Below are positions 3 through 21,466 of a DNA stretch of 29,529 nucleotides, piece after piece; the stretch's first letter is position 1; each line of letters opens with the position of its first letter. Source of the stretch: a virus. The notes beneath the pieces were generated by a model. That model worked only from the letters and a program-made list of their open reading frames with translations, did not search any database and was not told where the DNA came from. The stretch covers positions 1-29,529 of IMG/VR virus record IMGVR_UViG_3300017818_000072; one strand, given 5' to 3'. Made by a program: the position numbers and the translations under genes.

Positions 3-2432
3 TTGGAAGTATTGGAAGATGTAAATGTAGATGCTACGACATTTAGAACACCAAATCTAATTCTAAAAACAACCGCAGCAGGTATATGCGAATTTGTAGA
101 GCCTATTGAGACTGTAAGAGGACTATTAGATGTTGTACAAACACCAACTGCACTAGATCCTATTACTACACAAGGACTAGTTCTTACAAGTTTAGGAATG
201 GGTTCAGATCAATATGAATTCCAACTTCCTAACATACTTACAGATTATATTGTAGGCTGGAACCCAGTCAATGATAATGCTATAGGAGCAGTATTAACTG
301 TCACAGGCGCAGGTAACTTCCAATTTGAAATGCCATCTGTAGCTAGACTAGACGATGTAAATGTAGGCAATGCTGTAACACCAAACACTGTATTAATGAG
401 TGATACAGCGGGTAATTATACATTTGAAAATATAAACTTCAATCATTTATTGAATATTGATTATGCTAACAGCACACAAAATAATTGGAGTTTGGCAAGC
501 GACGGAGACGGAACTTATAGCTTTAAACAGCCACTTCTAAAAACTACAGAAGATGTTGATACACTAACTAATGATCCACGTAACGTAGATGATTTAGTTA
601 TGACATCACGTGGCGATGGCACATTTGGATTCAAAAGACTAGACTTTGATTCATTTGCTTCAGTAACAACTACAGGCGCTGGTGCTGGCTATATAATGAT
701 TACAGACGGTAGTGATAACTTCTCATTTATACAACCTTTGATGAGAACATTACAGGATGTTACAAATGGAACAACTGCTGGCAGCGAGATAAATTGGGTA
801 CTAGCAAGTAACGGTAATGGCACTTTTAGCTTTAAAGATATTGCTAACAACTTGTTCAACAGACGATGGGAAGACTTTGATTATGACACTACAGTTCATC
901 CTGTAACAGGCACAACTTATGCCCCAACTACTACACCTAATCTAGTATTTGTAACAGACGGAGATGAAACATATAGCTTCAAGTTTCCTACTTTAGACTT
1001 TTTAGTTGATATAGATGACACAACTAATAATCCTAAAACAACAGAGAACCTTGTGCTAACAAGCACTGGAACAAATGGAACTTATATGTTCAAAGAGGCT
1101 GAGCCACGCATTCAAAACCTGCGTAACTTAGACGCTTCAACAAATAATCCAGACATTGTTCCTAATTTGGTATTGACAAGTAAGGGTGACGGAACATATC
1201 ATTTTAGCACATTCAACGAGTTCAATAACTTACCAGACGTAGATACAATTACTAATGATCCAAAGACTACTGCTAATAAGATTATGATATCTACAGGCAC
1301 TGGTAACGCAACAGATCCTTATTATAAATTTGTAGATCAAGAACTTGAATACGCAACTGATGTAGATTTTACAGACGCAACCAACGCTGACTATGTTCTA
1401 ACAAGCCGAGGCGGAGGTGCGTATAATTTTGTAGAACCAAACACTCTTATTACAAAAACACTTGTTGGGCTAACTGATATTGACTTTACACCTGATGGTA
1501 TTGATGACTATCAAACTGTAATGGGTCTTGTATTAACTACTGATGGAATGGGTGGATTCAACTTTAGAAATCCATCAGATTGGATGACTAGACTTGATAA
1601 TATGTATGATGTCAATACTACTGTAACACAATCCGTTGGAACTACTGTCAAAGCAGATAGGACATACGCAGACCCAATCAATCCATTACTACCGCCTTCA
1701 TCGACAGCCATACCAGGATTAATGTTAGTGTCAAATGGCGATGCAACTTATGATTTTATCTATCCTGAGTTGAGACTAATGGTAGATTTAGATACTGTAA
1801 CAAATGATCCTTTGACTACTGAAGGACTGTTTTTATTGAGCGATGGAAATGGTGAATTTAACTTTGGGTCATCTATTCCAGGATCACTTACAGTAGGAGA
1901 TTTGCAAATAGCGGTAACAGCAAATAATGAAATAGATACACTTAGCATGGATCTCATACTTGACTCAGCTACAGGGCAAACTATTGTAGATGATGACTTG
2001 AGTGTGTCTGGTAGTGTAGTAGTTGGTGGAGATTTAACAGTACAAGGCACAACTACAACAGTCAATTCAACTACTGTTACTATTGACGATCCAATATTTA
2101 CATTGGGCGGAGACGAGCCACAAACAGTGGCGGATACAATGGATCGCGGTATTGAATATCAATGGCACGATGGCACAGATCCAAAGCTAGGATTTTTTGG
2201 TTGGGACAAATCAGCACAAGCATTTACCTTTATCCCAGATGCCACCAATATAGCTGAAGAATTTAGTGGATTACCAGGTGATATTATAGTAAATGATATT
2301 GATGCTACAAATATTGACGCTACAGAAATGATTACAACAAAAGACATTCAAATAGCTGAAACAGGAACGCTAAGAGAATTACCTATAGCGACAGAAGAAT
2401 TTGCCCTAGTGATGGCGATTGCACTTGGTTGA
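3..2432 (+). CDS. Large repeat-containing tail fibre/structural protein (5'-truncated)
   Basis: The frame is open from the left edge, so the true start lies outside; the first TTG codon at base 3 is not a convincing start. Residues 1 to about 620 are some 16 degenerate units of 30-55 residues, each of the form D-V/I-D...TNDP.TT..LVLTS.GDGTY.F. This 'value/rendered output' repeat is common in long phage tail fibres. From about residue 629 the protein switches to the shared QIAVTANNEIDT module and then, at about 683-760, to a TTTVNSTTVTIDDP..TLGGD module also found in the genes at 4420 and 15618. The C-terminus is hydrophobic and short. The function as a fibre or baseplate-attached structural protein is inferred from repeats and context; no enzyme signature is visible. 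A late promoter overlaps its stop codon. Confidence 0.75.
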   Translation: MEVLEDVNVDATTFRTPNLILKTTAAGICEFVEPIETVRGLLDVVQTPTALDPITTQGLVLTSLGMGSDQYEFQLPNILTDYIVGWNPVNDNAIGAVLTVTGAGNFQFEMPSVARLDDVNVGNAVTPNTVLMSDTAGNYTFENINFNHLLNIDYANSTQNNWSLASDGDGTYSFKQPLLKTTEDVDTLTNDPRNVDDLVMTSRGDGTFGFKRLDFDSFASVTTTGAGAGYIMITDGSDNFSFIQPLMRTLQDVTNGTTAGSEINWVLASNGNGTFSFKDIANNLFNRRWEDFDYDTTVHPVTGTTYAPTTTPNLVFVTDGDETYSFKFPTLDFLVDIDDTTNNPKTTENLVLTSTGTNGTYMFKEAEPRIQNLRNLDASTNNPDIVPNLVLTSKGDGTYHFSTFNEFNNLPDVDTITNDPKTTANKIMISTGTGNATDPYYKFVDQELEYATDVDFTDATNADYVLTSRGGGAYNFVEPNTLITKTLVGLTDIDFTPDGIDDYQTVMGLVLTTDGMGGFNFRNPSDWMTRLDNMYDVNTTVTQSVGTTVKADRTYADPINPLLPPSSTAIPGLMLVSNGDATYDFIYPELRLMVDLDTVTNDPLTTEGLFLLSDGNGEFNFGSSIPGSLTVGDLQIAVTANNEIDTLSMDLILDSATGQTIVDDDLSVSGSVVVGGDLTVQGTTTTVNSTTVTIDDPIFTLGGDEPQTVADTMDRGIEYQWHDGTDPKLGFFGWDKSAQAFTFIPDATNIAEEFSGLPGDIIVNDIDATNIDATEMITTKDIQIAETGTLRELPIATEEFALVMAIALG

Positions 2433-2438
2433 TAAATA
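2431..2438 (+). promoter_or_regulatory. T4-type late promoter GATAAATA
   Basis: GATAAATA begins inside the TGA stop of the preceding gene and lies 22 bases before the ATG at 2461. In T4 the TATAAATA box spans about -13 to -6, which would place the start of transcription near 2444 and leave a short leader with the AAGGA ribosome-binding site at 2450-2454. Confidence 0.65.
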
Positions 2439-2460
2439 ATAGTAGAGATAAGGATTATAA

Positions 2461-2805
2461 ATGGCAAATAATTTCAAGAATGCAGGCACAAACGGAATAT
2501 CAACTGATCCATCTAACCCAACAGTATTATATACTGCCAATAACGGAACGCCTGTAAATTCAATCTTATTAGAATTAGATATTGCTAACGTAGGTACAAA
2601 CATTGCGAATGTTACTGTATTGCTAAATGATGTTAGCGCAGGTACCCAATATCATATTGTAAAAGATGCAGAAGTTCCAGTAAAAGGAACCCTAAAGATT
2701 ATTTCAGGACAAAAAATAGTATTGAATCTTGGAGATGAAATACATCTATACTCAAACTTTGCAACATTAGATGCACTAGCATCTATACTTGAGGATGTAG
2801 CATGA
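2461..2805 (+). CDS. Small virion-associated protein, marine T4-like type
   Basis: 114 residues starting MANNFKNAG, with an AAGGA ribosome-binding site 6 bases upstream and its own late promoter. The layout resembles small structural proteins that, from memory, sit beside fibre genes in marine T4-like phages: an N-terminal NNFKNA, a 'TVLYTANNGT' strand, a central beta-rich 'VTVLLND.S....YHIVKDAEVP' segment and a 'SGQKIVLNLGDEIHLYSN' C-terminal half. It is predicted to be an all-beta jelly-roll-like protein without signal peptide or membrane segment. It overlaps the next gene by ATGA, suggesting translational coupling. The role (fibre connector or decoration) is inference. Confidence 0.65.
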   Translation: MANNFKNAGTNGISTDPSNPTVLYTANNGTPVNSILLELDIANVGTNIANVTVLLNDVSAGTQYHIVKDAEVPVKGTLKIISGQKIVLNLGDEIHLYSNFATLDALASILEDVA

Positions 2806-3017
2806 TCCGAGAAGAAACTAATCTAGAGTATATTGGAACTTTTGGTAACGATGATATAGATTATATAGATTTAGCTAACAACAATTGGCTTATATCATTG
2901 ACAGTATTTCCATTTTATAGAACTGACGGAGCATTTAGCCCAATATGTTTAAATAGAGCTGGTAACGTACCATTTACAAACTGGGATGGCAGCGAAACAG
3001 AAGTTAAGGTGAATTAA
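2802..3017 (+). CDS. Small hypothetical protein coupled to 2461 gene
   Basis: 71 residues, acidic and aromatic (M-I-R-E-E-T at the start, several W/Y/F), starting at the ATGA overlap with the previous stop. I do not recognise a family. The next fibre-like gene starts 2 bases after its stop, so it sits inside a tight operon. The opening IREET resembles the R-E-E near the C-termini of the proteins at 7165 and 20399 (SREETATQV, VREESGTDV), but the match is too short to be evidence of homology. It may be a small connector or chaperone for the adjoining fibre. Confidence 0.6.
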   Translation: MIREETNLEYIGTFGNDDIDYIDLANNNWLISLTVFPFYRTDGAFSPICLNRAGNVPFTNWDGSETEVKVN

Positions 3018-3019
3018 AT

Positions 3020-4405
3020 ATGGCACAAGTTGAATTAGTAAAAGCAATTAAAACGTCTGGAATAGTAACTGCCTTAGGCGAACTAGCACCAGGTGATTTT
3101 TTCTTATTGCGAGGAGATGCAGGAGAAGGAGGCGGTTTTTATGTCAATAACTCAGCTAACTCATTCTCAACACAAATAGTTGGAGCAGAAGTAGCATCAA
3201 ATATTAAGCTAACGCTACCACCTACAGTAGGTAATCCAGGAGAAGTATTACAAACAGACGGAGCAGGTGTATTAACATTTACATCAAGCCCATCTATTTC
3301 TTCTCTTACTATTAGTGGAGACTTAGCAGTAGGCGGCAATTTTGATTTGACAGGAAATATTACTATTGGCGGAAATTCCAATGCTGGTGATGCTGCTACA
3401 GATACATTGACTATTGCTGCTGACATTACATCAAATATTATTCCAGATGTAGATGATACATATGATCTTGGAAGCACAACACAACAATGGAAAGATCTCT
3501 ACATCAACGGAAAAGCAACTATTGATACTTTACAGATTGATGAAAATTCTACTTTGCTAGGAACACTATCAGTTGCAGGAGCTACTACACTAAGCTCAAC
3601 ATTAGGTGTTACTTCAAACACTACTGTAGGCGGAACTTTGGGAGTTTCTGGAGCTACTACACTAAGCTCAACATTAGGTGTTACGGGAGCTACTACATTA
3701 GGAAATACTCTTAGTGTTACAGGAGCTACTAATATAAACAACAATTTGTCTGTTTCTGGAACTGCTGGTATTACAGGCGCTACGCAAATAGACGGTGCTT
3801 TGACAGTCTTAAGTGCTAGTAATTTAGTCACTACTACAGTGACAGGCGGTTTTAATGTAGTAGGTAATAGTGGTTTAGACGGAACGCTTACTGTAACCGG
3901 AGATACTACATTAGGAGCTCAACTAGCGGTAGTAGGACAATCAACATTCCTTGGAACATTTATAGCAGCAGGAGCAGAAAACTATCTTGGCAATAATTCA
4001 GATGATAGAGTAGCAATATATGGTCTCGTAAACTCTGATATTGTGCCAGACACAGATTTAGCTCGATCTTTAGGATCTCCATCTACTTATTGGCAGTATG
4101 CTTATATTGGTGGATTACTTTCTCAAAATACAGCAGTTGGCAATATCCAAACTGCTGTAACAACTAGCAACACTATTGATACTGACGCTGGCAATTTAAT
4201 AATAGATTCAGCTGGGGGAACAGTACAAATAAATGACAATATCGAAATACAAGGTTCAGCTAAAATTACTGACACAGTATATTTGGGCAACTGGACTATT
4301 CAAACAAACGCCAGTAATGATATATTATTCTCTATTGGCGGAACTGTAATGTTTAAAATGGATTCTACTGGTGTCTTCCAGAGCGGAACCGATGTAACTA
4401 TATAA
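3020..4405 (+). CDS. Collagen-like/triplet-repeat tail fibre protein
   Basis: 461 residues. The N-terminus (AQVELVKAIKTSGIVTALGELAPGDFFLLRGDAGEGGG region) is followed by a 'GEVLQTDGAGVLTF' unit. About residues 140-175 carry the DVDDTYDLGSTTQQWKDLYI motif common in phage fibres. Residues 175-300 are a shaft of short beta repeats of the type L.VTGATTLSSTLGVTGATTL. A second DLARSLG...YW motif and one QIAVT-like copy (VGNIQTAVTTSNTIDT) follow. The end (GNWTIQTNASNDILF..GG) resembles the protein at 5631. The repeats suggest a trimeric beta-helical fibre shaft. Within the shaft a 35-base stretch is exactly repeated in the DNA. Function is inferred from architecture. Confidence 0.75.
   Translation: MAQVELVKAIKTSGIVTALGELAPGDFFLLRGDAGEGGGFYVNNSANSFSTQIVGAEVASNIKLTLPPTVGNPGEVLQTDGAGVLTFTSSPSISSLTISGDLAVGGNFDLTGNITIGGNSNAGDAATDTLTIAADITSNIIPDVDDTYDLGSTTQQWKDLYINGKATIDTLQIDENSTLLGTLSVAGATTLSSTLGVTSNTTVGGTLGVSGATTLSSTLGVTGATTLGNTLSVTGATNINNNLSVSGTAGITGATQIDGALTVLSASNLVTTTVTGGFNVVGNSGLDGTLTVTGDTTLGAQLAVVGQSTFLGTFIAAGAENYLGNNSDDRVAIYGLVNSDIVPDTDLARSLGSPSTYWQYAYIGGLLSQNTAVGNIQTAVTTSNTIDTDAGNLIIDSAGGTVQINDNIEIQGSAKITDTVYLGNWTIQTNASNDILFSIGGTVMFKMDSTGVFQSGTDVTI
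3578..3684 (+). repeat. 35-base direct repeat within fibre gene
   Basis: Bases 3578-3612 and 3650-3684 are identical (35 of 35, period 72 bases), encoding two GATTLSSTLGVT units. A close relative of the same DNA occurs at about 16757-16785 in the gene at 15618, so the repeat is shared between genes as well as within this one. Confidence 0.85.
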
Positions 4406-4419
4406 TAAGGAGTATATAA

Positions 4420-5619
4420 ATGGCAGTTTCATTAAATCAATTAAATACCGACTATGAAAAAAGCCTAGCCGCTTTTGGAATGGAAACAACAGGCGCCAAC
4501 AGAGGAACTTTTGCTGGCGGATCATCAACAGTAACAGGCACACATCTTGGAACAAATGTTCCTTTGATGACGGGTCTTTCCAACATGGATACAAGTGTTG
4601 AAAATATTAAAGTTGATTCAGTATCACAAACCAGAGCTACTGGACAAACTATTGCTTCACCACTAACATTAAGCAATACTTTGACTGTGGCTCAACCTTC
4701 AACCTTCAGCAGTAATCTAACGGTTATTGGTAATTTGATTGTAGGCGGTACAACTACAACTGTCAATTCACAACAAGTTACAATTGACGACCCAGTTATG
4801 ACACTAGGTGGTGATATAGCTCCTACTACAAACGACGGATTAGATCGCGGTATTGAATACCGATGGCATGATGGAGCTGGTGCAAAAATTGGTTATTTTG
4901 GCTTTAGCCGAGCCGATAATGCTTTTACATTTATTCCTGACGCTACGAACACTAGCGAATCATTTAGCGGAATGAAAGGCAACATTGTAGTAAATGATGG
5001 AACATTCAATACTGTAACAGCAAATTCTTTTGTTGGACCAGTTGGTGGCAATGCTGATACTGCTACTCAACTAGAAAATTCTTTGACTGTAAATTTTATT
5101 GGCACATATGCTACAGGTTCAACAGGTGCTTTTACTGGTAACGAAGGAAGCATTGATGTAACACTAACAGCTCTGCAAGCTGACAAATGGACTAATCCTA
5201 TTACTGTTACATATATTGACGACGAAGCTAATTTAGGTGATGTTGTTGGATCAGTAGGATTCGATGGCACAGCCAATAAGCCAGATATCAAACTAAATGT
5301 CAAAAGAGCAGAGAAATGGAAAACTGCTAGAACTATTACATTAGGTGGAGATACTACAGGTAGCGTAACATTGGACGGTACTGCTGATGTAAATCTTGCA
5401 GTAACTGTAACAGAACTTCCTAACAAGGCTAACATCAGTGGAGATAATACGCAAGATTTTGCAACTAAAACTTTGTCAGTTGGTGCTGGCGGTTGGGCTA
5501 TGGAACAAGATGTTGATGGGAATGTAGTTATTAAGCATGGAACTTCTACGCTTTTCAAGATTACAACAGCAGGTAATGTTCTAGCAGCTGGCGACATTTC
5601 TGCACAGGAAACTTTATAA
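4420..5619 (+). CDS. Modular tail fibre-like structural protein
   Basis: 399 residues, with an AAGGAG ribosome-binding site at 4407-4412. An N-terminal part without recognised motifs (residues 1-75) leads into a short beta repeat (LSNTLTVAQPSTF). Residues 110-185 are the TTTVNSQQVTIDDPVMTLGGD module with GLDRGIEYRWHDG, near-identical to those in the genes at 3 and 15618. Residues 195-355 contain beta-rich text (LTVNFIGTYATGSTGAFTG, then ITLGGDTTGSVTLDGTADVN), typical of long phage tail fibres. The C-terminus (GGWAMEQDVDGNVVIKHGTS) parallels the C-terminal motif of the 3020 protein. Probably a virion fibre component. Confidence 0.7.
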   Translation: MAVSLNQLNTDYEKSLAAFGMETTGANRGTFAGGSSTVTGTHLGTNVPLMTGLSNMDTSVENIKVDSVSQTRATGQTIASPLTLSNTLTVAQPSTFSSNLTVIGNLIVGGTTTTVNSQQVTIDDPVMTLGGDIAPTTNDGLDRGIEYRWHDGAGAKIGYFGFSRADNAFTFIPDATNTSESFSGMKGNIVVNDGTFNTVTANSFVGPVGGNADTATQLENSLTVNFIGTYATGSTGAFTGNEGSIDVTLTALQADKWTNPITVTYIDDEANLGDVVGSVGFDGTANKPDIKLNVKRAEKWKTARTITLGGDTTGSVTLDGTADVNLAVTVTELPNKANISGDNTQDFATKTLSVGAGGWAMEQDVDGNVVIKHGTSTLFKITTAGNVLAAGDISAQETL

Positions 5620-5630
5620 AAGGATTATAA

Positions 5631-6293
5631 ATGGCAATTTCACTAAGTTCAGTCAGTAACCAGCTGGCCCTTACTAATTCAAGTATAGGAATTGATCCAA
5701 GCTCAGGCTCAATTAATGTATCTGGATCACCTGGGACAATTTCTAGCGGAGATTCAGTAGTTCAAAGTTTGGAGAAACTAGATACTGCTATACAAAATTT
5801 AAATTCAGTTGATGCCGGCTTGTCTATGAATAAAGCTGACAAATCAGGAAGTGATTTTTATGGACCAATTGGTATTCAAGCATCTTTTATAAGCTCAACC
5901 AAATGGACATTTTCAGTAAATGCCAGTAATCAACTGATTTTTAACTATAATGGAACTGATGTAGCAACTGTTAATACAGACGGAACCTCATCGTTTGGTG
6001 GATCTACAGCAGTAGTATTACAAACTACTGGAACATTTGATATGTCTGCAGGAACTAATTTCAAATGCACTCCTGCAGGAGCTATAACTATAGGCTTTTC
6101 AAATTTAGTAAATGGACAATCTGGATCTATATATTTTGATAACAGTGGAGGGCACGGAGTTACACAAGGAACTAATGTAAAAATATCAGCCAACGATTTA
6201 TCAGCAATCAATGGAAACGCTGGTATTTATTGGTTAGCATATTTTACTGATGGAACTGATGTGCTTGTAGCCTCTTCAGGATCCTTAACATGA
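5631..6293 (+). CDS. Tail fibre-like protein with C-terminal beta domain
   Basis: 220 residues, preceded by AAAGGA at 5619-5624. Residues 1-65 (ISLSSVSNQLALTNSSIGID...GDSVVQSLEKLDTAI) look like a fibre attachment segment with a short helix. Residues 80-115 carry STKWTFSVNASNQLIFNYNGT, the same motif that ends the 3020 protein and opens the 11569 protein. The remainder (CTPAGAITIGFSNLVNGQSGSIYF...GTNVKISANDLSAINGNAG) is a compact beta domain reminiscent of receptor-binding tips, followed by a YWLAYFTDGTDVLVASSGSL ending. The role is inferred. It overlaps the LamG-like gene by ATGA, so both are likely made together. Confidence 0.65.
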   Translation: MAISLSSVSNQLALTNSSIGIDPSSGSINVSGSPGTISSGDSVVQSLEKLDTAIQNLNSVDAGLSMNKADKSGSDFYGPIGIQASFISSTKWTFSVNASNQLIFNYNGTDVATVNTDGTSSFGGSTAVVLQTTGTFDMSAGTNFKCTPAGAITIGFSNLVNGQSGSIYFDNSGGHGVTQGTNVKISANDLSAINGNAGIYWLAYFTDGTDVLVASSGSLT

Positions 6294-7093
6294 GCTTTCC
6301 GCTGATAAGCCAAACAAATAAAACACCACCTGTTGCAATAACTATGCCAACAGGTAGTTCTCTTGGGACTAATCAGTTTTTAAAATTTCCAAGATCAACA
6401 GGCGGTTCATTTGCTAATAATTTAGGAAGCTCTTTTGTTTTATCAATGTGGGTCAATATACCTGACTTTACAGAAAATAGAGCAATTGCAGGAGCAGCAT
6501 ATCAAGGCAGTGCTGCTCGATCATCTGCTCTTATGATAAGAAGCGATGGCTCTCTACATTATTGGCAACACAATAATGATTCAGGATATAATATAGACCT
6601 ATCTACTGCGTCAGGTATGGTAGCAGGGCAATGGTATCATATACAAGTTAATCATTATAGAAATTCAGCTGATATAACAGATCAAACAGTCACTATCTAT
6701 CGAGACGGTGTAGCAATAATTGGACCTGTAACCGCTTGGACTTCCTTATTCTCAAATCAGCACACTTATCAAGCATTTAATGCAAATACTTCATCAACAG
6801 GCGAACAAATTACGCATACTATTGGAGCTTATATAGGAAATAATGCTGGCTCAATGACACCATACAGTGGAGGAATGAATTTTTGGCGCTGCTATATGAT
6901 TGATGGCGATCAAGGCGATTTCCCAAATCCAAGTAGCTTTATAAGCACAGACTCAAATGGAAATATTGGCGCAATACCATACACGGGTGGATTTGGCACT
7001 AACGGTTACTTTTTAGAAATAGATGGCCCAGTATCAGTCACAGAATTTGATTTATCTGGGAATGGGATAGTTTGGGAGGCGGCTAGTTTCTAA
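6290..7093 (+). CDS. LamG/concanavalin-like adhesin
   Basis: 267 residues. The pattern fits the laminin-G/ConA-like lectin fold (LamG-type, as in PF13385): residues 49-55 (FVLSMWV), 85-91 (SDGSLHY), 110-119 (MVAGQWYHIQ), 133-142 (TVTIYRDGVA) and 194-206 (GGMNFWRCYMIDG) correspond to the usual strands, W-x-H and 'YvDG' elements. No signal peptide or membrane helix is seen, consistent with a virion protein. Such domains typically bind sugars, and here it probably acts as a receptor-binding or decoration lectin. Its start codon is in the ATGA overlap with the upstream gene's stop. Confidence 0.72.
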   Translation: MSFPLISQTNKTPPVAITMPTGSSLGTNQFLKFPRSTGGSFANNLGSSFVLSMWVNIPDFTENRAIAGAAYQGSAARSSALMIRSDGSLHYWQHNNDSGYNIDLSTASGMVAGQWYHIQVNHYRNSADITDQTVTIYRDGVAIIGPVTAWTSLFSNQHTYQAFNANTSSTGEQITHTIGAYIGNNAGSMTPYSGGMNFWRCYMIDGDQGDFPNPSSFISTDSNGNIGAIPYTGGFGTNGYFLEIDGPVSVTEFDLSGNGIVWEAASF

Positions 7094-7095
7094 TA

Positions 7096-7158
7096 ATATC
7101 CTTCGATACGATTTCTATATAAAGATAAATACTTTTATAGAATTATGACGAAGGATAT
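7096..7158 (+). promoter_or_regulatory. Hairpin enclosing late promoter and RBS of 7165 gene
   Basis: A perfect 10-bp inverted repeat (ATATCCTTCG at 7096-7105 with CGAAGGATAT at 7149-7158) encloses a second one (TTCTATA at 7113-7119 with TATAGAA at 7136-7142) that is extended by AAAG/CTTT. The 7-base apical loop 7125-7131 is ATAAATA, the core of the late promoter. The AAGGA ribosome-binding site of the gene at 7165 lies in the 3' arm (7151-7155). RNA reading through from upstream would hide the ribosome-binding site; RNA started at the internal promoter (about 7137) lacks the 5' arms. Confidence 0.7.
7124..7131 (+). promoter_or_regulatory. T4-type late promoter GATAAATA
   Basis: GATAAATA 34 bases before the ATG at 7165, in the loop and loop-closing base of the hairpin described at 7096-7158. 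Predicted transcription start is near 7137. Confidence 0.7.
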
Positions 7159-7164
7159 ACCATA

Positions 7165-12597: not shown

Positions 12598-12614
12598 TAC
12601 AATAGGTTGAATGC

Positions 12615-12622
12615 TATAAATA
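12615..12622 (+). promoter_or_regulatory. T4-type late promoter TATAAATA
   Basis: A perfect TATAAATA, 17 bases before the ATG at 12640. Transcription would start near 12628, on the AAGGA ribosome-binding site itself. This excludes the in-frame ATG at 12607 as the start for transcripts from this promoter. Confidence 0.75.
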
Positions 12623-12639
12623 ACATAAAGGAAACATTT

Positions 12640-12876
12640 ATGCCAATATCATTTCCACAAGGTACAACAGTTGGTGAACTTTATACTGAAGGAGGAACTA
12701 CTTGGAAGTGGAATGGAACTGGTTGGGCAACGGTAAGTGCGGATCAATTATTTGCCTCTGCTACAGCACCTGCAAATCCAATCGACGGCAATACTTGGTA
12801 TGATATGAATACAGGCAAATTGTATTTTTATATGGGCGGAGCTTGGATACAAGCAAAAACGGCTGTTTCAATATAA
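12640..12876 (+). CDS. Stand-alone Trp-rich mini-protein (FP-W unit)
   Basis: 78 residues from the ATG at 12640, chosen over the in-frame ATG at 12607 because AAAGGA (12627-12632) is well placed and the late promoter lies between the two ATGs. It consists of one complete unit. The first half is FPQGTTVGELYTEGG, TWKWNGTGW; the second half is NPIDGNTWYDMNTGKLYFY, GGAWIQ. The same unit occurs alone at 15083 and 15342 and at the N-terminus of the 12887 protein. The alternating W/Y pattern suggests a small beta-hairpin module that may bind sugar or act as an adaptor; this is inference. Confidence 0.72.
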   Translation: MPISFPQGTTVGELYTEGGTTWKWNGTGWATVSADQLFASATAPANPIDGNTWYDMNTGKLYFYMGGAWIQAKTAVSI

Positions 12877-12886
12877 GGAGAAATAA

Positions 12887-15061: not shown

Positions 15062-15064
15062 ATA
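15057..15064 (+). promoter_or_regulatory. T4-type late promoter TATAAATA
   Basis: A perfect TATAAATA that contains the TAA stop (15059-15061) of the propeller gene. The AAAGGAG ribosome-binding site at 15069-15075 follows directly, and the ATG is at 15083. Confidence 0.75.
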
Positions 15065-15082
15065 TTATAAAGGAGAATATGA

Positions 15083-15328
15083 ATGGCACTTACATTTCCT
15101 GCAGGCTCTGCAGGCAACTTATATACTGAAGGAGATAACACTTGGGAGTATAATGGAACTGCTTGGGACCGATTATACAGTGACGAAGTGTATGTACAAG
15201 ATACTCTCCCAACAACTCCAACACCAATAACAGGTAACTATTGGTTTAACACAGAAAACGGCAGAATGTATTTCTATGACACTTCAGGGGCATGGGTACA
15301 AATGGGCTCTGCCTATCAGCCAACATAA
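15083..15328 (+). CDS. Stand-alone Trp-rich mini-protein (FP-W unit)
   Basis: 81 residues with the ribosome-binding site AAAGGAG 8 bases upstream. It is a complete FP-W unit: TFPAGSAGNLYTEGDNTWEY, NGTAWDRL, then ITGNYWFNTENGRMYFYDTS, GAWVQ. Close to the proteins at 12640 and 15342, but the TTVG element reads SAGN. Transcribed from the late promoter at 15057, with the 15342 gene next. The function is unknown; it is likely a small virion component or fibre adaptor. Confidence 0.72.
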   Translation: MALTFPAGSAGNLYTEGDNTWEYNGTAWDRLYSDEVYVQDTLPTTPTPITGNYWFNTENGRMYFYDTSGAWVQMGSAYQPT

Positions 15329-15341
15329 TAAGGAGACTTAA

Positions 15342-15572
15342 ATGGCAGCATTTGCTTTTCCCACTGGAACTACTGTAGGAGAACTATTTGAGCACGAAGG
15401 ACGAACTTGGGCTTGGAATGGTGGACAGTGGGTTACAAAAAATAAAAAGACTATTTTTGCTCAAGATACTGAACCTGAGGATGTAATTGAAGCGAATAGG
15501 TGGTTGAATACAGAAAATGGCAAACTGTATTTTAGAACACAAGATACTTGGGTGCAACCAAGAATAATGTAA
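15342..15572 (+). CDS. Stand-alone Trp-rich mini-protein (FP-W unit)
   Basis: 76 residues with AAGGAG 7 bases before the ATG. One FP-W unit: FAFPTGTTVGELFEHEGRTW, AWNGGQW, then ANRWLNTENGKLYFRTQDTW. It shares W-L/F-N-T-E-N-G with the preceding gene, suggesting tandem duplication. The middle is more charged (KNKKTIFAQDTEPEDVIE). The function is unknown; the context points to a fibre-associated role. Confidence 0.7.
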   Translation: MAAFAFPTGTTVGELFEHEGRTWAWNGGQWVTKNKKTIFAQDTEPEDVIEANRWLNTENGKLYFRTQDTWVQPRIM

Positions 15573-15576
15573 TATT

Positions 15577-15584
15577 GCTAAATA
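15577..15584 (+). promoter_or_regulatory. Possible variant late promoter GCTAAATA
   Basis: GCTAAATA, 33 bases before the ATG at 15618, differs from TATAAATA at the first two positions. The same octamer lies upstream of the sheath gene (26364-26371). It is the only promoter-like sequence in this gap. Confidence 0.4.
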
Positions 15585-15617
15585 TATAAAGCTACTGATT
15601 TTTAAAGGAGATAAGAT

Positions 15618-17309
15618 ATGGCTTTTGCTTTTCCGAGCGCAACTACTGTAGGACAGTTATATACCTACGGCGCGACTACTTGGGAATGGGACGGTACTGT
15701 ATGGAATGTTCAACCATCCTTCGGTGATGTTCAACTCTCAATTACAGCAGACAACGAGATTGACACTAAGACTTTAGACTTGATCTTAGACTCTGCAACT
15801 GGTAATACACAAGTTGATGACAACTTGGCTGTAACTGGCACATTAGATGTTACAGGTATTTCAACATTTACAACTGACGCTTCTGTTGGTGGAACATTCA
15901 CTGTAACTGGCGCTACAGCACTTGGTAATTCTTTGGCTGTTACAGACGCTACTACATTGAATGGCGTTGTTTCCTCAAACACTATTACTCCATTGGCTAC
16001 TGCTACATACGATTTAGGTACTGCTTCTAATGTTTGGAATAACATTTATGGTAGCAAAGTAGTTCTTGGTGATTTGACAATTGATGGCTCAAACAACACT
16101 ATTAGTTCAGCAACCAATGCTATTGTTATTGATCCTTCCCCAAGTGGTGATGGCGGTGATGTAACTATTGCTGGTAACATTTTGATTACAGGCTCCACAA
16201 CTGGTGGAACAAGCACACTTGGTAATGTAACTATTACAGGTGACTTGACTGTAAATGGAACTACAACTACAGTAAATTCAACTACTGTAACACTTGATGA
16301 TCCCGTTATGACACTGGGTGGCGACACTGCTCCTACTACAAACGACGGATTGGATCGCGGTATTGAGTACCAATGGCACGACGGCACAGCAGCAAAGGTT
16401 GGTTTCTTTGGCTTTGATCGCTCAGTTCAGAAATTTACCTTTATGCCAGACGCAACTAACACAGGCGAAGTTTTCTCAGGAACACTGGGCAACGTAGCAT
16501 TTGGTGGCGCTGACTTTTCAGGTCATGTTATGCCATCAGCAGACAAAACATACGACTTGGGCCATGAATTGACGATGTGGAACCATGGTTATTTTGACTC
16601 CATTACAGTTAACAACTTGACAGTTCCAAGCACTAACTTTGGTAATATCCAAATTGCTGTAACAGATGATCAAACTATTGACACAATTACTGGTGATTTG
16701 GTTTTAAGTTCAAATAGTGGCAACGTTAGTATCAACGGAGCTACCACTGTATCTGGAGCAACTACACTAAGCTCAACTTTGGGCGTAACTGGCGCAGCTA
16801 CAATGTCATCAACTTTGGACGTAACTGGAGTGGCTACACTTAGTGATGCATTGAATGTAACAGGCGCAGCAACATTGAGTTCAACTTTGGCTGTAACTGG
16901 TGCGGTAACTGCTGGTGATACATTGGCTGTGACAAACGGCGCAACAGTTGGCGGAACACTTGGTGTAATTGGCGCAAGCTCACTTGCTGGTGTAGCTGCC
17001 GATACTATCAACCCAAACGCTGATTTGACATGGGACTTGGGCGGAGCAGCTCTTCGCTGGACTAACATTTATGCTCAAACCATTCACATGGTTGATCCTG
17101 CAACTCCAGCAGTAAATATTCCATTGACAGTACAAGGAAACGACTTGTATGTTGATGGCGTAAAAGTTGGCGGAGCTTGTACAGTTGATACCGCAGCACC
17201 TGCCTCTCCAGATGAGGGCATGATGTGGTTGGATCGCAACTCAGGTATTCTTTATATTTGGGTCGTAGATTCCGGCACAGGCGTAGGAAACTGGATCCAG
17301 CCTCTATAA
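15618..17309 (+). CDS. Large modular tail fibre-like protein, own transcription unit
   Basis: 563 residues with AAAGGAG at 15603-15609. The first half of the FP-W unit is at the N-terminus (FAFPSATTVGQLYTYGATTW) and the second half at the C-terminus (EGMMWLDRNSGILYIW...NWIQ), so the fibre body appears inserted between them. In between are two QIAVT-type modules, three YDLG..W..Y motifs (ITPLATATYDLG, VMPSADKTYDLG, INPNADLTWDLG), the TTTVNSTTVTLDDPVMTLGGD module at about 214-290, and a V/T-rich shaft (LSSTLGVTGAATMSSTLDVTG). Leucine is mostly TTG here, while the neighbours mainly use TTA and CTA. A terminator follows directly. Likely an abundant structural fibre protein. Confidence 0.75.
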   Translation: MAFAFPSATTVGQLYTYGATTWEWDGTVWNVQPSFGDVQLSITADNEIDTKTLDLILDSATGNTQVDDNLAVTGTLDVTGISTFTTDASVGGTFTVTGATALGNSLAVTDATTLNGVVSSNTITPLATATYDLGTASNVWNNIYGSKVVLGDLTIDGSNNTISSATNAIVIDPSPSGDGGDVTIAGNILITGSTTGGTSTLGNVTITGDLTVNGTTTTVNSTTVTLDDPVMTLGGDTAPTTNDGLDRGIEYQWHDGTAAKVGFFGFDRSVQKFTFMPDATNTGEVFSGTLGNVAFGGADFSGHVMPSADKTYDLGHELTMWNHGYFDSITVNNLTVPSTNFGNIQIAVTDDQTIDTITGDLVLSSNSGNVSINGATTVSGATTLSSTLGVTGAATMSSTLDVTGVATLSDALNVTGAATLSSTLAVTGAVTAGDTLAVTNGATVGGTLGVIGASSLAGVAADTINPNADLTWDLGGAALRWTNIYAQTIHMVDPATPAVNIPLTVQGNDLYVDGVKVGGACTVDTAAPASPDEGMMWLDRNSGILYIWVVDSGTGVGNWIQPL

Positions 17310-17319
17310 TAATCCATAT

Positions 17320-17345
17320 ATGTCAAGCTCTTTGGAGCTTGACAT
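17320..17345 (+). terminator. Rho-independent-like terminator hairpin
   Basis: An 11-bp perfect stem (ATGTCAAGCTC at 17320-17330 with GAGCTTGACAT at 17335-17345), a 4-base TTTG loop and a short T-run (TT) right after. It begins 10 bases after the stop of the fibre gene and lies before the next promoter. The T-run is short, but the stem is strong. Confidence 0.75.
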
Positions 17346-17350
17346 TTCTG

Positions 17351-17358
17351 CATAAATA
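17351..17358 (+). promoter_or_regulatory. T4-type late promoter CATAAATA
   Basis: CATAAATA six bases after the terminator stem, 24 bases before the ATG at 17383. Confidence 0.6.
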
Positions 17359-17382
17359 CACTATAATATTTAAAGAGAGCTA

Positions 17383-18591
17383 ATGGCAACGACATTTAGA
17401 TTTTTTAGTGTAAAATCAAAAGAAACTTACCCAACAACAATACAATTATCAAGAATCGCAAACTCGTCTGACTTTACGACATATATGAATCGAGGACCTG
17501 TTCAAGTTGCAGGACAAGACATTACCCAAGGCAAACCAGTTAATGCAGTATTAGACGCAGTAAAATGCCCAACTACAAATAAATTAGTTTATATAAGCGC
17601 CTTAAAATATCTCAATCTTCCTTATATCCACCAGCTATATCCAAGAAATATTTCTATAATAGTAATGGGAGGAAGAGGAGAACCCTTGGGCTTTGATGAA
17701 GATGGAACTCCAATCCCAAATTATCTTGATCATATAGATCAAGTCAAATTCGATGATTTGGCTCATAAAGTTGGTACTATTCCTGCTGAAGATAATGCAT
17801 TTACTACTACCGCCTCAGTTACAAGAAATTATGATGTTGCTGCTTTTCGTACAAACGGAACCGCAAATTGGTCTGGATCATTTAATAGAACCAATTGGAA
17901 AGTTGGATATGGTGCTACGACTACCAGCGGCATCGAAAGCTCTGCAACAGGAAATTTAGTATCTAATTATACTGATATTCATAATGTAGCAATGGAAAAA
18001 TTTGATTTTATTGGTGGCAGTGGAGGATATCTCTATCAAACTGATATAGACAAATATCGATGGGATGACCCTAATGTTGTTGCAGTTGCAGCAAACCCAA
18101 TGTCACAAACATATTATAGAGCTAGCACCGTAGGACAGGAATATGATTACTTAAGAGTAGGTGGTAGAGTTCCAGGAATGAGTAATTCCATAACTGGAAT
18201 ATCTGGAGAGAAACACAGATATGCGGATGATGCTGCTGCAGTAACAACAGCCAATTATAATGCTATCACTAATGGAACTATGCTAGAATATAATGGCGAT
18301 GTTGTGAGTTATTCTACATGGTCCTTTTGGAAATTCAAATATGATGATCCAACTACTTCCACAGTTCTAACATATAGAACCTCTACTAGAGCAGCCGGCC
18401 ATGTAAGCGCAGGAGATTATGCTGACGGAAGTGCGTATGTATCTAATGGTTGGACTTCTGCTGGTTCTCAGAGCGGAATAGGAAACGATGTTATACAAAA
18501 AATGAAATTTGATGATAGCGCCGCCTGTCAAATACTTTCTACAAGACTACAAGAAGCAAAACAAGCCGCTTGTGGTGGAGGAATAAGCTAA
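17383..18591 (+). CDS. Kelch-like beta-propeller adhesin (pair 2, first)
   Basis: 402 residues. An N-terminal segment of about 85 residues (including LVYISALKYLNLPYIHQLYP) is followed by kelch-like units with V/G-G-G strands and K-x-K-F-D-D type motifs: QVKFDDL, DKYRWDDP, KHRYADD, FKYDDP, KMKFDDS. The third to fourth blades are less regular than in the 9435 protein and contain longer insertions. It corresponds to the first member of the other pair by position, although the N-termini differ. A GGAGG ribosome-binding site for the next gene lies within its last codons, and its TAA overlaps the next ATG. Inferred to be adhesive. Confidence 0.65.
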   Translation: MATTFRFFSVKSKETYPTTIQLSRIANSSDFTTYMNRGPVQVAGQDITQGKPVNAVLDAVKCPTTNKLVYISALKYLNLPYIHQLYPRNISIIVMGGRGEPLGFDEDGTPIPNYLDHIDQVKFDDLAHKVGTIPAEDNAFTTTASVTRNYDVAAFRTNGTANWSGSFNRTNWKVGYGATTTSGIESSATGNLVSNYTDIHNVAMEKFDFIGGSGGYLYQTDIDKYRWDDPNVVAVAANPMSQTYYRASTVGQEYDYLRVGGRVPGMSNSITGISGEKHRYADDAAAVTTANYNAITNGTMLEYNGDVVSYSTWSFWKFKYDDPTTSTVLTYRTSTRAAGHVSAGDYADGSAYVSNGWTSAGSQSGIGNDVIQKMKFDDSAACQILSTRLQEAKQAACGGGIS

Positions 18592-19622
18592 TGGCAGCCA
18601 TTATATTTGCCGATGGATTTTTTGATATTACAACATCTGATTTAGCTGATGCAGTTATAATTGACGGGCACGGGTGTGCTGATGTTGCTATATACAATGG
18701 CGGGCGTCCGTCAATACCAGGCTCTCAAACAGATTCATTACAAAAAATAAGATTTGATGATAGTGTGGTAGTTACAACATCAACAACTACTATGGTTGAA
18801 GATAGAAGACATCACTGCTCAACATCTGATGGAACAAATATATATGTAGCACAGGGTAGAGGATCTGGTGGATACAGACAAGCAGTAGAAAAGTTTCAAA
18901 TCTCATCAGAAGCATCAGTAACTATTACAAATAATAATCTAACCTCAGCACGAACTGGACTGATGGGAACTGGAACCGCTACAGAACAATATTTCTTTGG
19001 TGGTAGAAATGCGGGATCGGGAATGTTCACCGTAATAAACGCTCCAGACAGACTAAGAAATGATGACTCGGCAGCAGCAACAACTTATCCAAGTTTTACA
19101 GTAGCACGATGGCATCATACTGTAGCAGGCAATGGAGAAGATGCTTTTGTTTGCCAAGGTTGGAGTGACGAAGCAAGAGATGGAATTATAGCAGGAGCTG
19201 CCACAGCATCATATGAAAAATATCGTATGGCAGGATCATCCTCTACTTCTATATTTGTATCCTCTATGGATTCATATTTAACAGCACGAAACGATGTTAA
19301 CGGAGCATCTGGAGGAAATTGTATTGTGCTAGTTGGCGGGGAAGAACCAGATTATAGTGCTAATTGGAATCAAATTAGAAAATTAAGATATGACGATTAT
19401 GTTCTTACTTTATCAATAACACTAGCAACAGCCACAAAGGAAGTTCAAACCTGCTCCAATGGCGATGTTATTATGGGCGCTGGCGGACATGATTTGATAG
19501 GTGACGGTGACGCTATAAGCAGAATAAACCATATTCGTCACGAGGATATGATAGAAATAATAACTACAAGTAACAGTCTAGCGAGCAACTCAACTGAAGG
19601 AGCTGTGAGCTCTGGCATATAA
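18591..19622 (+). CDS. Kelch-like beta-propeller adhesin (pair 2, second)
   Basis: 343 residues from the ATG at 18591. This start is preferred over the in-frame ATG at 18570 because it forms a TAATG overlap with the upstream stop, has GGAGG 10 bases upstream, and aligns with the N-terminus of the 10546 protein (IIFADGFFDI...LADAVIIDGHG). Six repeats carry KIRFDDS, KFQISSE, RLRNDDS, KYRMAGS, KLRYDDY and HIRHEDM, with blades 2 and 4 degenerate. G-G-R/G-G-E strands are present. It is probably co-translated with the preceding propeller gene. Confidence 0.65.
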   Translation: MAAIIFADGFFDITTSDLADAVIIDGHGCADVAIYNGGRPSIPGSQTDSLQKIRFDDSVVVTTSTTTMVEDRRHHCSTSDGTNIYVAQGRGSGGYRQAVEKFQISSEASVTITNNNLTSARTGLMGTGTATEQYFFGGRNAGSGMFTVINAPDRLRNDDSAAATTYPSFTVARWHHTVAGNGEDAFVCQGWSDEARDGIIAGAATASYEKYRMAGSSSTSIFVSSMDSYLTARNDVNGASGGNCIVLVGGEEPDYSANWNQIRKLRYDDYVLTLSITLATATKEVQTCSNGDVIMGAGGHDLIGDGDAISRINHIRHEDMIEIITTSNSLASNSTEGAVSSGI

Positions 19623-19633
19623 TATAGAGGATT

Positions 19634-20371
19634 ATGACAACAGAAATTGATATTAGACAAGTACCAAATGATATCGCTGTAAAACTTGAAGCAACCCTGC
19701 CTATAGTACAAAAACAAATTGATGAACTTATTGTTTCTAAAAACGCAGAAACAACTATTGCTGATTTACAATATTCAGGACAAACACCTCTTGTATGGTT
19801 ACAACAATGCGCCATGCAACAACAAAACCGTTTGAACGCTTTACGAGAAACTTGGTTTAGACATAAGAAAAATGAATTACGAATAGAACAATATCGTATG
19901 AAAATCAATGATCCTATGGCACAACTAAAAGCAGAGGAACTTGAAGCAGGACTTGAAAGTTCTAGAACTGCTATTCGTAACGCAATGGAAGAATTACAAA
20001 GCTATCAAGATCAAATTGATGCACTACGAAAAAACTTTAATCTTCCAGATGAAATTCCACCCGAGATGGTTCGTGAGAATGATAAGCGTGAAAAAATCCG
20101 CGGAGCATTTAGGAGAGCTATTGAGGAATTCCAAGCCACAGGAACTATTCCTAGAGGAATCCAAGAGAGTTTAGAATGGAGCGGAATCCATCCACTAGTA
20201 GCAAGACGGCACTGTTTAGAATATATTCAAACTGTTGAGGAATTATTTGAGGCAGGAAAAGCACCTACTATTAGACACTTACTCAATTGGCTAGATGAGA
20301 TGGAAGCCTTATACATCAACTGTCCTAACGAAGTAGTAGAACATCACCTCAAAAATAAAATCCTAGACTGA
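19634..20371 (+). CDS. Coiled-coil protein of unknown function
   Basis: 245 residues with AGAGGA directly upstream. Unlike its neighbours it is highly charged and mostly helical: residues 60-150 (NRLNALRETWFRHKKNELRI through SRTAIRNAMEELQSYQDQID) have coiled-coil character, and the C-terminal third (HPLVARRHCLEYIQTVEELF) is helical. No domain, motif, signal peptide or membrane segment is recognised. Lying between adhesin genes, it may be a fibre-assembly chaperone or a scaffold connecting the small modules to the virion; this is only context-based. Confidence 0.7.
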   Translation: MTTEIDIRQVPNDIAVKLEATLPIVQKQIDELIVSKNAETTIADLQYSGQTPLVWLQQCAMQQQNRLNALRETWFRHKKNELRIEQYRMKINDPMAQLKAEELEAGLESSRTAIRNAMEELQSYQDQIDALRKNFNLPDEIPPEMVRENDKREKIRGAFRRAIEEFQATGTIPRGIQESLEWSGIHPLVARRHCLEYIQTVEELFEAGKAPTIRHLLNWLDEMEALYINCPNEVVEHHLKNKILD

Positions 20372-20377
20372 TAAATA
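20370..20377 (+). promoter_or_regulatory. T4-type late promoter GATAAATA
   Basis: GATAAATA starts at the G of the TGA stop of the coiled-coil gene, just as at 2431. The AAGGAAGGAG ribosome-binding region follows, and the ATG is at 20399. Confidence 0.65.
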
Positions 20378-20398
20378 TTGTAAAGGAAGGAGCAAACT

Positions 20399-21466
20399 AT
20401 GATTAGTTTTCCCGCATCGCCCTCAAGTGGGCAACAATATTCAGAAGGCGGAACTACTTGGGAATATAATGGCACTGTATGGAATGTTATTGCTGAAACT
20501 ACAGGCGAACAAACTGTAGATAATATTCAAGTAGGCGTAACAACTGACAACACTATTGATACCTCCTCAGGAGATTTAGTATTAGGAGCTACTGGGAATG
20601 TTGTATTAGCAGCCGATCTCATCACAACAGGATATAAAATCAACAGTTCCTATGAACTTCCTGGAGCTGATGGAACTGCTGGGCAGATATTAAAAACAGA
20701 TGGCTCAGGCACCGTGTCCTTTGCAGATCCAACACGAACCTTTGGTAATATTAGAATTGGTGTTGATTCCGACCTAAAGATTGACACAACTTCGGGTACT
20801 TTGATTCTCGACTCTGCATCTGGTAATATAACTGCATCAGGAAATGTAAATATTACAGGCTCAATTGCACCTATTATTAGTGCTGTTTACAGTTTAGGAG
20901 CAACAACTAATACCTGGGGAAATGTATATAGTCTTGCAACCACAACAAATAACATAAACACACTCTCAGGAAACTTAACAGTAAGTTCAGTAGGCGGTAC
21001 TGTAACAGTTATGGGCAGTGTTAATTTTAATGGTAACTATACATTCCCAACTACAGACGGAACTACTGGACAAGTGCTAACAACTAATGGCAGCGGTACA
21101 GTATCATTTGTAACACCACCACAAACACTAGCAGATTTTAATATTATGGAAGGAACTTCTGGACAACTGTTACACACTGATGGAGCAGGAATGCATACTT
21201 GGAGTAGTAGTTCAGCGGCAGGTTTTACATTTGGTAATCTTCAAATTGGTATAGTTGATGGCAATACTATTGACACAACTACTGGAAACCTAGAGTTAGA
21301 CTCAGCTAGTGGTATGACATATGTTGTAGATGATTTATATGTAACAGGAAGTATTGACTTTTTAGGTACACTAACACAAAACGGAAATATGGTTGATACT
21401 GGAAATCCAGATCCACGTATTGTTAGAGAAGAATCTGGTACTGATGTAACTTACACCTTCAACTAA
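20399..21466 (+). CDS. Modular tail fibre-like protein
   Basis: 355 residues. Residues 1-30 are the first half of the FP-W unit (FPASPSSGQQYSEGGTTWEY, NGTVW). Three QIAVT-type modules follow (DNIQVGVTTDNTIDT, FGNIRIGVDSDLKIDT, FGNLQIGIVDGNTIDT), separated by G-Q-I-L-K-T-D-G-S-G repeats and one YSLG..TNTWGNVY motif. The C-terminus PRIVREESGTDVTYTFN matches the end of the 7165 protein, perhaps a shared partner-binding tail. The gene ends convergently, overlapping the Nudix gene by 8 bases. No clear terminator is visible between them. Confidence 0.72.
   Translation: MISFPASPSSGQQYSEGGTTWEYNGTVWNVIAETTGEQTVDNIQVGVTTDNTIDTSSGDLVLGATGNVVLAADLITTGYKINSSYELPGADGTAGQILKTDGSGTVSFADPTRTFGNIRIGVDSDLKIDTTSGTLILDSASGNITASGNVNITGSIAPIISAVYSLGATTNTWGNVYSLATTTNNINTLSGNLTVSSVGGTVTVMGSVNFNGNYTFPTTDGTTGQVLTTNGSGTVSFVTPPQTLADFNIMEGTSGQLLHTDGAGMHTWSSSSAAGFTFGNLQIGIVDGNTIDTTTGNLELDSASGMTYVVDDLYVTGSIDFLGTLTQNGNMVDTGNPDPRIVREESGTDVTYTFN

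Follow-up and report, generated by a model that had tools for sequence, protein, structure and literature searches.

Introduction

Detailed knowledge of multi-fibre jumbo phages comes mainly from a small number of Klebsiella phages. As described in the accessible sections of the reports, RaK2 and K64-1 (Alcyoneusvirus) encode about ten fibre proteins, nine of them in a 19-kb cluster, which have conserved N-terminal parts and were found in virions by tandem mass spectrometry (MS/MS) (PMC10253068), and the single jumbo phage phiKp24 carries many hyperbranched tail fibres that combine an N-terminal anchor with branching parts and include 14 putative depolymerases (PMC9700779). Here, we investigated an IMG/VR virus record of 29,529 bases (IMGVR_UViG_3300017818_000072, called the window throughout) and in particular an array of 20 fibre-like genes at positions 3-21466. 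This array is probably the larger part of a host-recognition locus in an uncultured myovirus, itself probably a jumbo phage; in this locus a fixed base would carry trimeric fibres with exchangeable tips.

RaK2 and K64-1 are jumbo myoviruses and distant relatives of the present virus (their gp15 matches at 38% over 45% of the query). By the same partial account, about 20 kb separate their cluster from the other structural genes, and it does not lie between capsid and gp15 as it does here (PMC10253068); moreover, many of their fibre proteins are depolymerases, whereas none of the 20 proteins of the array matched a polysaccharide depolymerase family of Pfam at E values up to 1. Branching in phiKp24 is attributed in the available text to T4 gp10-like domains, and its fibres carry beta-helix enzymes, whereas the present locus has a candidate paired three-stranded joint and propeller- or lectin-like tips; scanning all 20 array proteins against Pfam and PHROG gave no match to T4 gp10, and no sensitive profile-profile search was made. 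Beta-propellers are described in the phage receptor-binding or baseplate proteins phi11 Gp45, PRD1 P2 and phiKZ gp131, which according to the sections available are five- or seven-bladed and belong to other families (PMC4901313), whereas four kelch-like and two FG-GAP proteins occur here in one island. A literature search returned no work combining the kelch beta-propeller with phage tail fibres, although some works do mention kelch together with phage receptor-binding proteins, and no claim of absence from print is intended. For large vibrio phages, the accessible part of one study describes recombination hotspots in receptor-binding genes (PMC12028318).

The closest counterpart in gene order is the tail fibre H locus of PA5oct (Arenbergviridae), in which the capsid gene is followed by small genes, a fibre gene and then NUDIX and gp15 genes on the other strand. 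Where the present virus has 23 fibre-island genes, PA5oct has a single fibre gene (1008 aa) together with three small genes and a homing endonuclease, and it has further tail or fibre genes (gp316-gp318) beyond gp14. By analogy, the present island may work like the RaK2 and phiKp24 systems, with conserved docking ends and variable tips. With 25-48 kb of exchangeable fibre genes kept at a constant genomic position in its metagenomic relatives, the locus would allow host-range evolution to be read directly from sequence.

Results

A fibre-gene island between the capsid gene and the tail genes

The array consists of 20 successive plus-strand open reading frames (ORFs; g01-g20) separated by at most 73 bases, and by eye a purine-rich stretch precedes most of their start codons. 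The first-pass annotation had described these ORFs as reusing a few named modules, which was borne out, and had let the first gene start at base 3, which was not: in contig G001 (76.6 kb, the longest contig carrying window positions 1-19900) g01 encodes 1280 aa and starts 471 codons further upstream. The same contig places the left edge of the array about 4.75 kb beyond the left end of the window. Six genes separate the capsid gene from g01 (x14084, lipoprotein-like by eye; x15214, IscU-like; x15818; x16364; x17402; x17779), and the fibre genes proper begin at x16364, x17402 and x17779, giving an island of 23 genes and 26.2 kb from x16364 to g20. On the right, NUDIX, gp15-like and gp14-like genes follow on the minus strand; beyond them lie genes for a neck protein, a kinase, an HNH endonuclease and a long tail sheath. 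The features are as follows.

g01, 3-2432, plus strand: 3' two thirds of the gene for a 1280-aa fibre-like protein with DGxGxYxF-type repeats; QIAVT (1887-2039) and TVNS (2004-2303) near the C-terminus
g02, 2461-2805, plus strand: 114 aa, paralogue of x17402, the island's second gene; similar genes of about 110 aa follow fibre genes in some relatives
g03, 2802-3017, plus strand: 71 aa, no Pfam or PHROG match at the limits used
g04, 3020-4405, plus strand: fibre-like; YDLG-W (3425-3559 and 4028-4165), QIAVT (4127-4279)
g05, 4420-5619, plus strand: fibre-like; TVNS (4705-5001)
g06, 5631-6293, plus strand: 220 aa, assigned as fibre-like only from weak matches to g04 and g20
g07, 6290-7093, plus strand: LamG/concanavalin-like lectin domain (PF13385), marginal
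g08, 7165-9435, plus strand: 756-aa fibre shaft with repeats; C-terminal motif common to g20
g09, 9435-10544, plus strand: kelch-like; six FDD repeats by regular expression
g10, 10546-11550, plus strand: kelch-like; five repeats by regular expression, a sixth by eye; poor structure model
g11, 11569-12597, plus strand: fibre tip with S74 intramolecular chaperone (PF13884); QIAVT (11959-12111), GxW (12109-12225)
g12, 12607-12876, plus strand: free-standing FP-W (12643-12738) and GxW (12751-12867) mini protein; by eye, the ATG at 12640 is a likelier start than the TTG at 12607
g13, 12887-15061, plus strand: FP-W and GxW head (12890-13114), seven FG-GAP repeats (13220-14401), C-terminal domain
g14, 15083-15328, plus strand: free-standing FP-W and GxW mini protein, 81 aa; structure modelled
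g15, 15342-15572, plus strand: free-standing FP-W and GxW mini protein, 76 aa
g16, 15618-17309, plus strand: mosaic fibre with, in order, FP-W, QIAVT, YDLG-W, TVNS (16218-16514), YDLG-W, QIAVT, repeats, YDLG-W and GxW
g17, 17383-18591, plus strand: divergent kelch-like; three repeats by regular expression, others by eye
g18, 18570-19622, plus strand: kelch-like; five repeats by regular expression, one by eye
g19, 19634-20371, plus strand: 245 aa, conserved (88%), helical-looking and by eye unlike a fibre; a possible assembly factor
g20, 20399-21466, plus strand: FP-W head (20399-20494), four QIAVT, one YSLG-W; 355 aa
g21, 21459-21890, minus strand: NUDIX hydrolase, right border of the island
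g22, 21904-23385, minus strand: tail sheath stabiliser (gp15-like)
g23, 23385-24560, minus strand: virion structural protein adjoining gp15, probably gp14-like from its position

Window positions 1-19900 recur in three of the five records queried, at an identity rounding to 100%, and a fourth contig covers 15668-24482 at about 99.9%; counted over the full overlap with the window, 13 of 29,529 bases are changed in each of G001 and G002, and 10 of 24,694 in G003. Since these contigs are nearly identical, the block is real and not an assembly artefact.

By its closest capsid, sheath and gp15 proteins, the virus groups with PA5oct-like jumbo myoviruses. The capsid protein is 67-70% identical to those of PA5oct, Phosso, CBB and Vibrio phage 2.275.O, the sheath 41% identical over 68% to the PA5oct group (30% over 88% to SCTP-2), and gp15 about 32% over 100% to Phosso, PA5oct and Atu_ph07. 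The virus is probably a jumbo phage itself, judging from its relatives (285-288 kb in the PA5oct group; 209,836 bases in G006, capsid identity 79%).

The position of the island was the same in the records examined. Capsid loci were taken from the best 80 of 600 matches, of which 41 had at least 3 kb downstream and the other 39, with less, were left out. In all 41, x16364 and then x17402 follow the capsid gene, x16364 starting 492-2307 bases after it, and x17779 is also present in order in 35; the profiles used were trained on hits from the same loci, and hits were also made by single-sequence BLAST. The tail fibre gene at the equivalent place in PA5oct matches the x16364 profile (residues 95-187 against profile positions 26-104, E 2.2e-13) and is tagged as found by electrospray ionisation (ESI)-MS/MS. 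We looked for gp15 in 20 of the 80 capsid records and found it in five, giving with G001 six records with both borders, in which capsid and gp15 lie 25.5 (G006), 31.1 (G007), 44.4 (G008), 47.8 (G009), 27.2 (G014) and 29.0 kb (G001) apart; in G007, G008 and G009 a few other-strand genes occupy the right end of the interval. Each of G006, G007, G008, G009, G014 and the distant G005 has two or more ORFs that are 1859 to 3768 residues long, compared with none above 1280 in this virus, whose island is thus cut into more, smaller genes. The ORF picker was greedy and may hide short genes beneath longer opposite-strand ORFs, so that gene counts in relatives are lower bounds.

This address could also suit proteins that coat the capsid or collar as head fibres or decoration, helping virions to stick to surfaces or particles rather than choosing the host. 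The island starts at most 2.3 kb from the capsid gene in 41/41 loci, phrog_697 (head and packaging) matches g01, g04, g05, g08 and g16, and Foldseek gave weak matches to small capsid proteins of phiKZ (E 0.91) and phicrAss001 (E 0.32). The opposite border, however, is a tail sheath stabiliser, the proteins match S74, LamG and several tail-fibre PHROGs, and the PA5oct gene at the equivalent place is annotated as a tail fibre. We therefore regard a head coat as improbable.

Five sequence modules are shared among the array genes

The module counts of the first-pass annotation were reproduced: QIAVT..IDT has eight clear copies in exactly the five genes named (one each in g01, g04 and g11, two in g16, three in g20), TVNS..DDP..TLGGD occurs in three genes (g01, g05 and g16), YDLG..W has six copies in g04, g16 and g20, and FP-W six copies in g12-g16 and g20. 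A ninth, divergent QIAVT copy lies in g20 (E 5.9e-7). We identified one further module, GxW, which follows FP-W in g12-g15, ends g16 and also occurs in g11. Leave-one-out profiles recovered every copy: 8/8 for QIAVT (E at most 2.5e-13), 3/3 for TVNS (2.3e-46), and 6/6 each for YDLG-W (7.6e-6), FP-W (5.5e-12) and GxW (3e-8). The best E values among 400 shuffled array proteins, used as a control, were 0.013, 0.0029, 0.00086, 0.0029 and 0.00079, respectively; the margin is narrowest for YDLG-W because its leave-one-out and shuffled values lie closest. The all-against-all comparison proposed earlier linked most fibre-like genes to several others, with g09, g10, g17 and g18 forming one family, g13 grouping with x17779, and g12-g16 with g20. 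The C-terminal motif R-x-EE..T.V.Y.FN common to g08 (9385-9435) and g20 (21416-21466) is possibly a capping or assembly tag.

TVNS matches 293 of 50,697 phage records, all of them named cyanophages or Synechococcus or Prochlorococcus phages (175 at 60-80% identity, 118 below 60%) and none with a PA5oct-type name. In the 25 best-listed records the module is 60-67% identical to that of the window and belongs to proteins annotated as structural, 'YadA domain' or tail fibre. The capsid lineage differs, with 30-33% identity to this virus in the rows listed; for example, P-SSM4 has 65.5% identity in TVNS vs 31.9% in the capsid protein, and S-RIM12_RW_25_0210 60.9% vs 31.9%.

Putative binding domains

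FG-GAP and S74 domains named in the first-pass annotation passed the Pfam cut-offs clearly: FG-GAP_2 in g13 scored 193.9 vs 23 bits and S74 in g11 (residues 233-293 of 342) 34.4 vs 22 bits. LamG in g07 passed only marginally (28.5 vs 27.6 bits). By a local profile, g13, x17779 and one G009 protein carry seven FG-GAP repeats each, so that x17779 is matched in this genome by a second seven-repeat copy on the FP-W/GxW head of g13. The FG-GAP profile matched none of the 32 x17779-like proteins encoded at the capsid loci, some of these proteins being cut by contig ends. FG-GAP repeats of the g13 kind were present in 14/50,697 phage records (12 cyanophage records, Phosso and Phage C48C1).

The kelch assignment stood in weaker form. 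No protein passed a Pfam cut-off, and a sub-threshold kelch match was obtained in g18 only (E 3.7e-4, 20.3 vs 50 bits); four proteins (g09, g10, g17, g18) are nevertheless kelch-like, and a family profile built from them and two proteins of L038 matches the solved KLHL12 at E about 1e-5. Six repeats were found by regular expression in g09 only, and autocorrelation of g17 gave no clear repeat period. Among the ORF sets scanned, the kelch profile reached only L129 (E 1e-4) beyond near-identical contigs and L008-type sisters. Searches of the 50,697 phage records gave no match to g10 or g19 at 1e-5, nor to g09 at 1e-3.

Divergence among close relatives is concentrated in the tips

The first-pass annotation predicted a large recombining receptor-binding apparatus and named an unchanged block in related phages as evidence to the contrary. 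Both patterns were found: four contigs at about 99.9% identity, which look like the same virus population, carry the block without exchange, whereas contigs with a 94-97% identical core differ in the array. The close relatives are L008, L009, L010, L011 and L013, whose g21-g24 are 94-97% identical in protein to the window, except that gp15 of L012 and L013 is only 83% identical. As these sister contigs span 4-8 kb, only the right-hand part of the array (end of g13 to g20) is comparable.

Within this part, divergence was concentrated in the tips. Protein identity to a sister contig is 32% for g17 and 51% for g18; g16 is 81% identical, with 90-100% in the first 120 and last ~80 residues and 55-60% in residues 321-480. 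g20 has 355 aa in the window vs 130 aa in L008, L009, L010 and L013, with both ends kept and a difference of 225 aa. Fourfold degenerate (4-fold) sites were compared using g16-g22 of L008, g23 of L009 and g24 of L011: 158/299 were changed in g17-g21 vs 126/405 in g22-g24 (p 8e-9 by Fisher test, treating sites as independent). The step persists for the conserved genes g19 and g21 alone (61/117, p 5e-5), and g16 resembles the core (86/258). This step in synonymous divergence argues for blocks with different histories; selection on codon use could add to it.

Ordinary fast divergence by point mutation and selection, with module exchange minor and the common modules ancient paralogues, would account for part of this picture. 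The module copies in the window look old (60-89% identical in DNA), the four near-identical contigs lack exchange, and g16 has no clear synonymous step along its length, though its amino-acid identity dips mid-protein. It does not readily account for the unequal synonymous divergence of blocks that include g19 and g21, for the length change in g20 with both ends kept, or for the disagreement of TVNS and capsid identities to the same cyanophage records. On balance we consider this explanation unlikely. Of the predicted apparatus, the large multi-gene fibre island, its kept place, the modules common across genes and the variation between close relatives stand, and the evidence for exchange is partly indirect.

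Identity between L008 and L013 is 98-100% in the last third of g16 and onward to the end of g21 and drops to mostly 74-88% in gp15-gp14, the switch lying between L008 positions 5815 and 6213, and L011 and L012 regain near identity past gp14. A gp15-gp14 segment of about 3 kb thus has sharp edges at L008 ~5815-6213 and L011 ~2582-2938 (window orientation). These recombination edges lie at the border of the island, and the piece exchanged there is core.

A candidate docking module at the fibre ends

FP-W and GxW form a small paired-sheet module that is also made as free-standing conserved proteins, which is new here. FP-W hits were collected among the ORFs in 43 loci, of which the mini-protein alignment had retrieved 39 and g16 four, several being near-identical records; possession of the module results from the selection of these loci, its position does not. 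FP-W begins within the first 15 residues in 63/64 hits; in the remaining hit it begins at residue 21, but that ORF could start further downstream. Some of the bodies that follow look collagen-like or collar-like by eye. Larger alignments, with 62 rows for FP-W and 73 for GxW, match each other with a profile probability of 85 (E 5.7e-6), which makes the mini protein a probable tandem repeat of a single fold.

The monomer model of g14 (predicted local distance difference test, pLDDT, 88.5) has seven short strands, which we read as two three-stranded units and one strand. In VIA-align, its second half resembled the collagen XV/XVIII trimerisation domains (Z 5.2-5.0) and the C-terminal part of CBA120 TSP3 (Z 4.2, 1.7 Å over 38), as well as Mtd residues 6-49, the P22 tailspike and TSP4 residues 40-78 (Z 2.4, 2.7 Å over 39). 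Fifteen predicted viral proteins of BFVD match the model at E up to 0.001, and 11 of them are named collagen, C1q, YadA, glycine-rich or tail-fibre. A PDB sequence search with the mini protein gave no match (best E 0.31). As far as the available text goes, CBA120 TSP4 has a beta-prism II in its N-terminal baseplate anchor domain (PMC8825819); the likeness to this anchor and to Mtd-type beta-prisms lies in one three-stranded sheet per chain, and the differences are the absence of a PDB sequence match and a modest likeness in fold. A literature search found no work joining collagen XVIII trimerisation with phage tail fibres; no claim of absence from print is made.

These models are consistent with FP-W/GxW possibly being a trimeric docking joint. 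A bolder and rather doubtful extension is that FP-W and GxW are one repeating three-stranded beta-prism 'plug', a universal connector of many environmental phages that heads unrelated fibres and caps others C-terminally, with the free-standing g12, g14 and g15 as joints or branch points, such that any plug-bearing adhesin would slot into the same fibre tree. If the plug proteins were joints, this would explain very different adhesins on one virion. A weak GxW-like motif was noted in the tail sheath (26413-29529; 1148 aa in G001; E 0.011) and in the gp14-like protein (23385-24560; E 0.019), and the module may be present on the tail itself too.

The FP-W/GxW proteins of 76-89 aa might instead be functionless remnants of fibre genes that lost their bodies, as they repeat the first ~75 residues of g13. 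L008, which does not reach g12, keeps g14 (70/81 residues identical) and g15 (72/76) intact, with 10/29 and 9/29 4-fold sites changed; both were hidden by the ORF picker and recovered by hand. They are thus better kept than g17, g18 and g20, seemingly under selection, and the remnant explanation is highly unlikely. Mtd is the textbook target of a diversity-generating retroelement, and its presence among the weak fold matches of g14 raises such an element as a source of the variation. The 13 differences between the window and G001 are, however, spread over seven genes, five of the array and two of the core, and include small clusters at 14-44 and 25001-25016. No long template repeat of near identity turned up in this incomplete genome, in which no search for a reverse transcriptase was made. 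A retroelement is hardly credible here.

Proposed organisation of the locus

In the reading we favour, a host-recognition locus with a fixed base and exchangeable tips, the conserved genes after the capsid gene (x16364, x17402 and the N-terminal domain of x17779) would supply the fixed part and the subsequent island genes the trimeric fibres and tips. The short end modules FP-W and GxW would act as trimer-forming docking joints, and the middle modules QIAVT, YDLG-W and TVNS, together with short repeats, would build the shafts. The ends would bear the binding domains, namely the kelch-like and FG-GAP propellers, LamG and the S74-matured tip. Homologous recombination and in-frame insertion or deletion could swap tips and leave assembly unbroken, because the ends are conserved and the middles and tips differ. 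We infer virion location, trimer formation, docking, receptor binding and glycan targets from these features.

Several observations weigh against this reading or its parts. The ESI-MS/MS tag belongs to the PA5oct fibre gene, and the proteins of this virus are known from gene sequence. At the DNA identity of the module copies within the window, no recent shuffling inside the genome is visible, and the sharpest recombination junctions bound gp15-gp14 rather than an adhesin, each coming from one possibly chimaeric contig (L013, L012). The similarity of TVNS to cyanophages could reflect strong constraint rather than transfer, isolate collections being rich in cyanophages, and the FG-GAP repeats need not stem from cyanophages because the core relative Phosso carries them. 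As to the plug, the small window-only alignments of FP-W and GxW matched with a probability of only 10, Foldseek with the g14 model gave no PDB match at E up to 0.001, and all VIA-align Z values were at most 5.2, a range for which the tool warns that only a common arrangement may be meant. The AlphaFold model of g10 (six rows) reached a pLDDT of 41.6, and Foldseek with it returned nothing at E up to 0.001 (best row KLHDC2, E 0.014); no weight was placed on this propeller model.

Other genes in and around the island

The HNH endonuclease (25943-26296, minus strand) overlaps the kinase gene and is probably a homing element; similar genes lie near the same place in G008 and G009. For the G009 island, 10 ORFs were put to Pfam and yielded S74, LamG, a glycine-rich domain, FG-GAP repeats, a tryptophan-halogenase-like flavoprotein (L175:16237-17745) and a subtilase (L175:9170-10738). 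By eye, G005 carries halogenase- and 2-oxoglutarate oxygenase-like genes beside glycine-rich fibre proteins (27661-36774, window orientation). The halogenase-, subtilase- and oxygenase-like island genes are possible fibre-modifying enzymes.

Moraphages were considered as the same lineage and set aside, as no sign of this was seen; the accessible sections of their description do not mention PA5oct or Atu_ph07 (PMC12619734). No host was drawn, since x15214 points to Planctomycetota/Acidobacteriota and TVNS to cyanophages. The former gene, a complete IscU-like iron-sulphur scaffold gene (L022:993-1388, minus strand), lies between the capsid gene and the island. The best 80 of its 552 genome matches are 74-83% identical and come mostly from Planctomycetota/Acidobacteriota metagenome-assembled genomes, with some from SAR324 and Bdellovibrio-like genomes. 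One other capsid locus, L049, carries an IscU-like gene at 80% identity.

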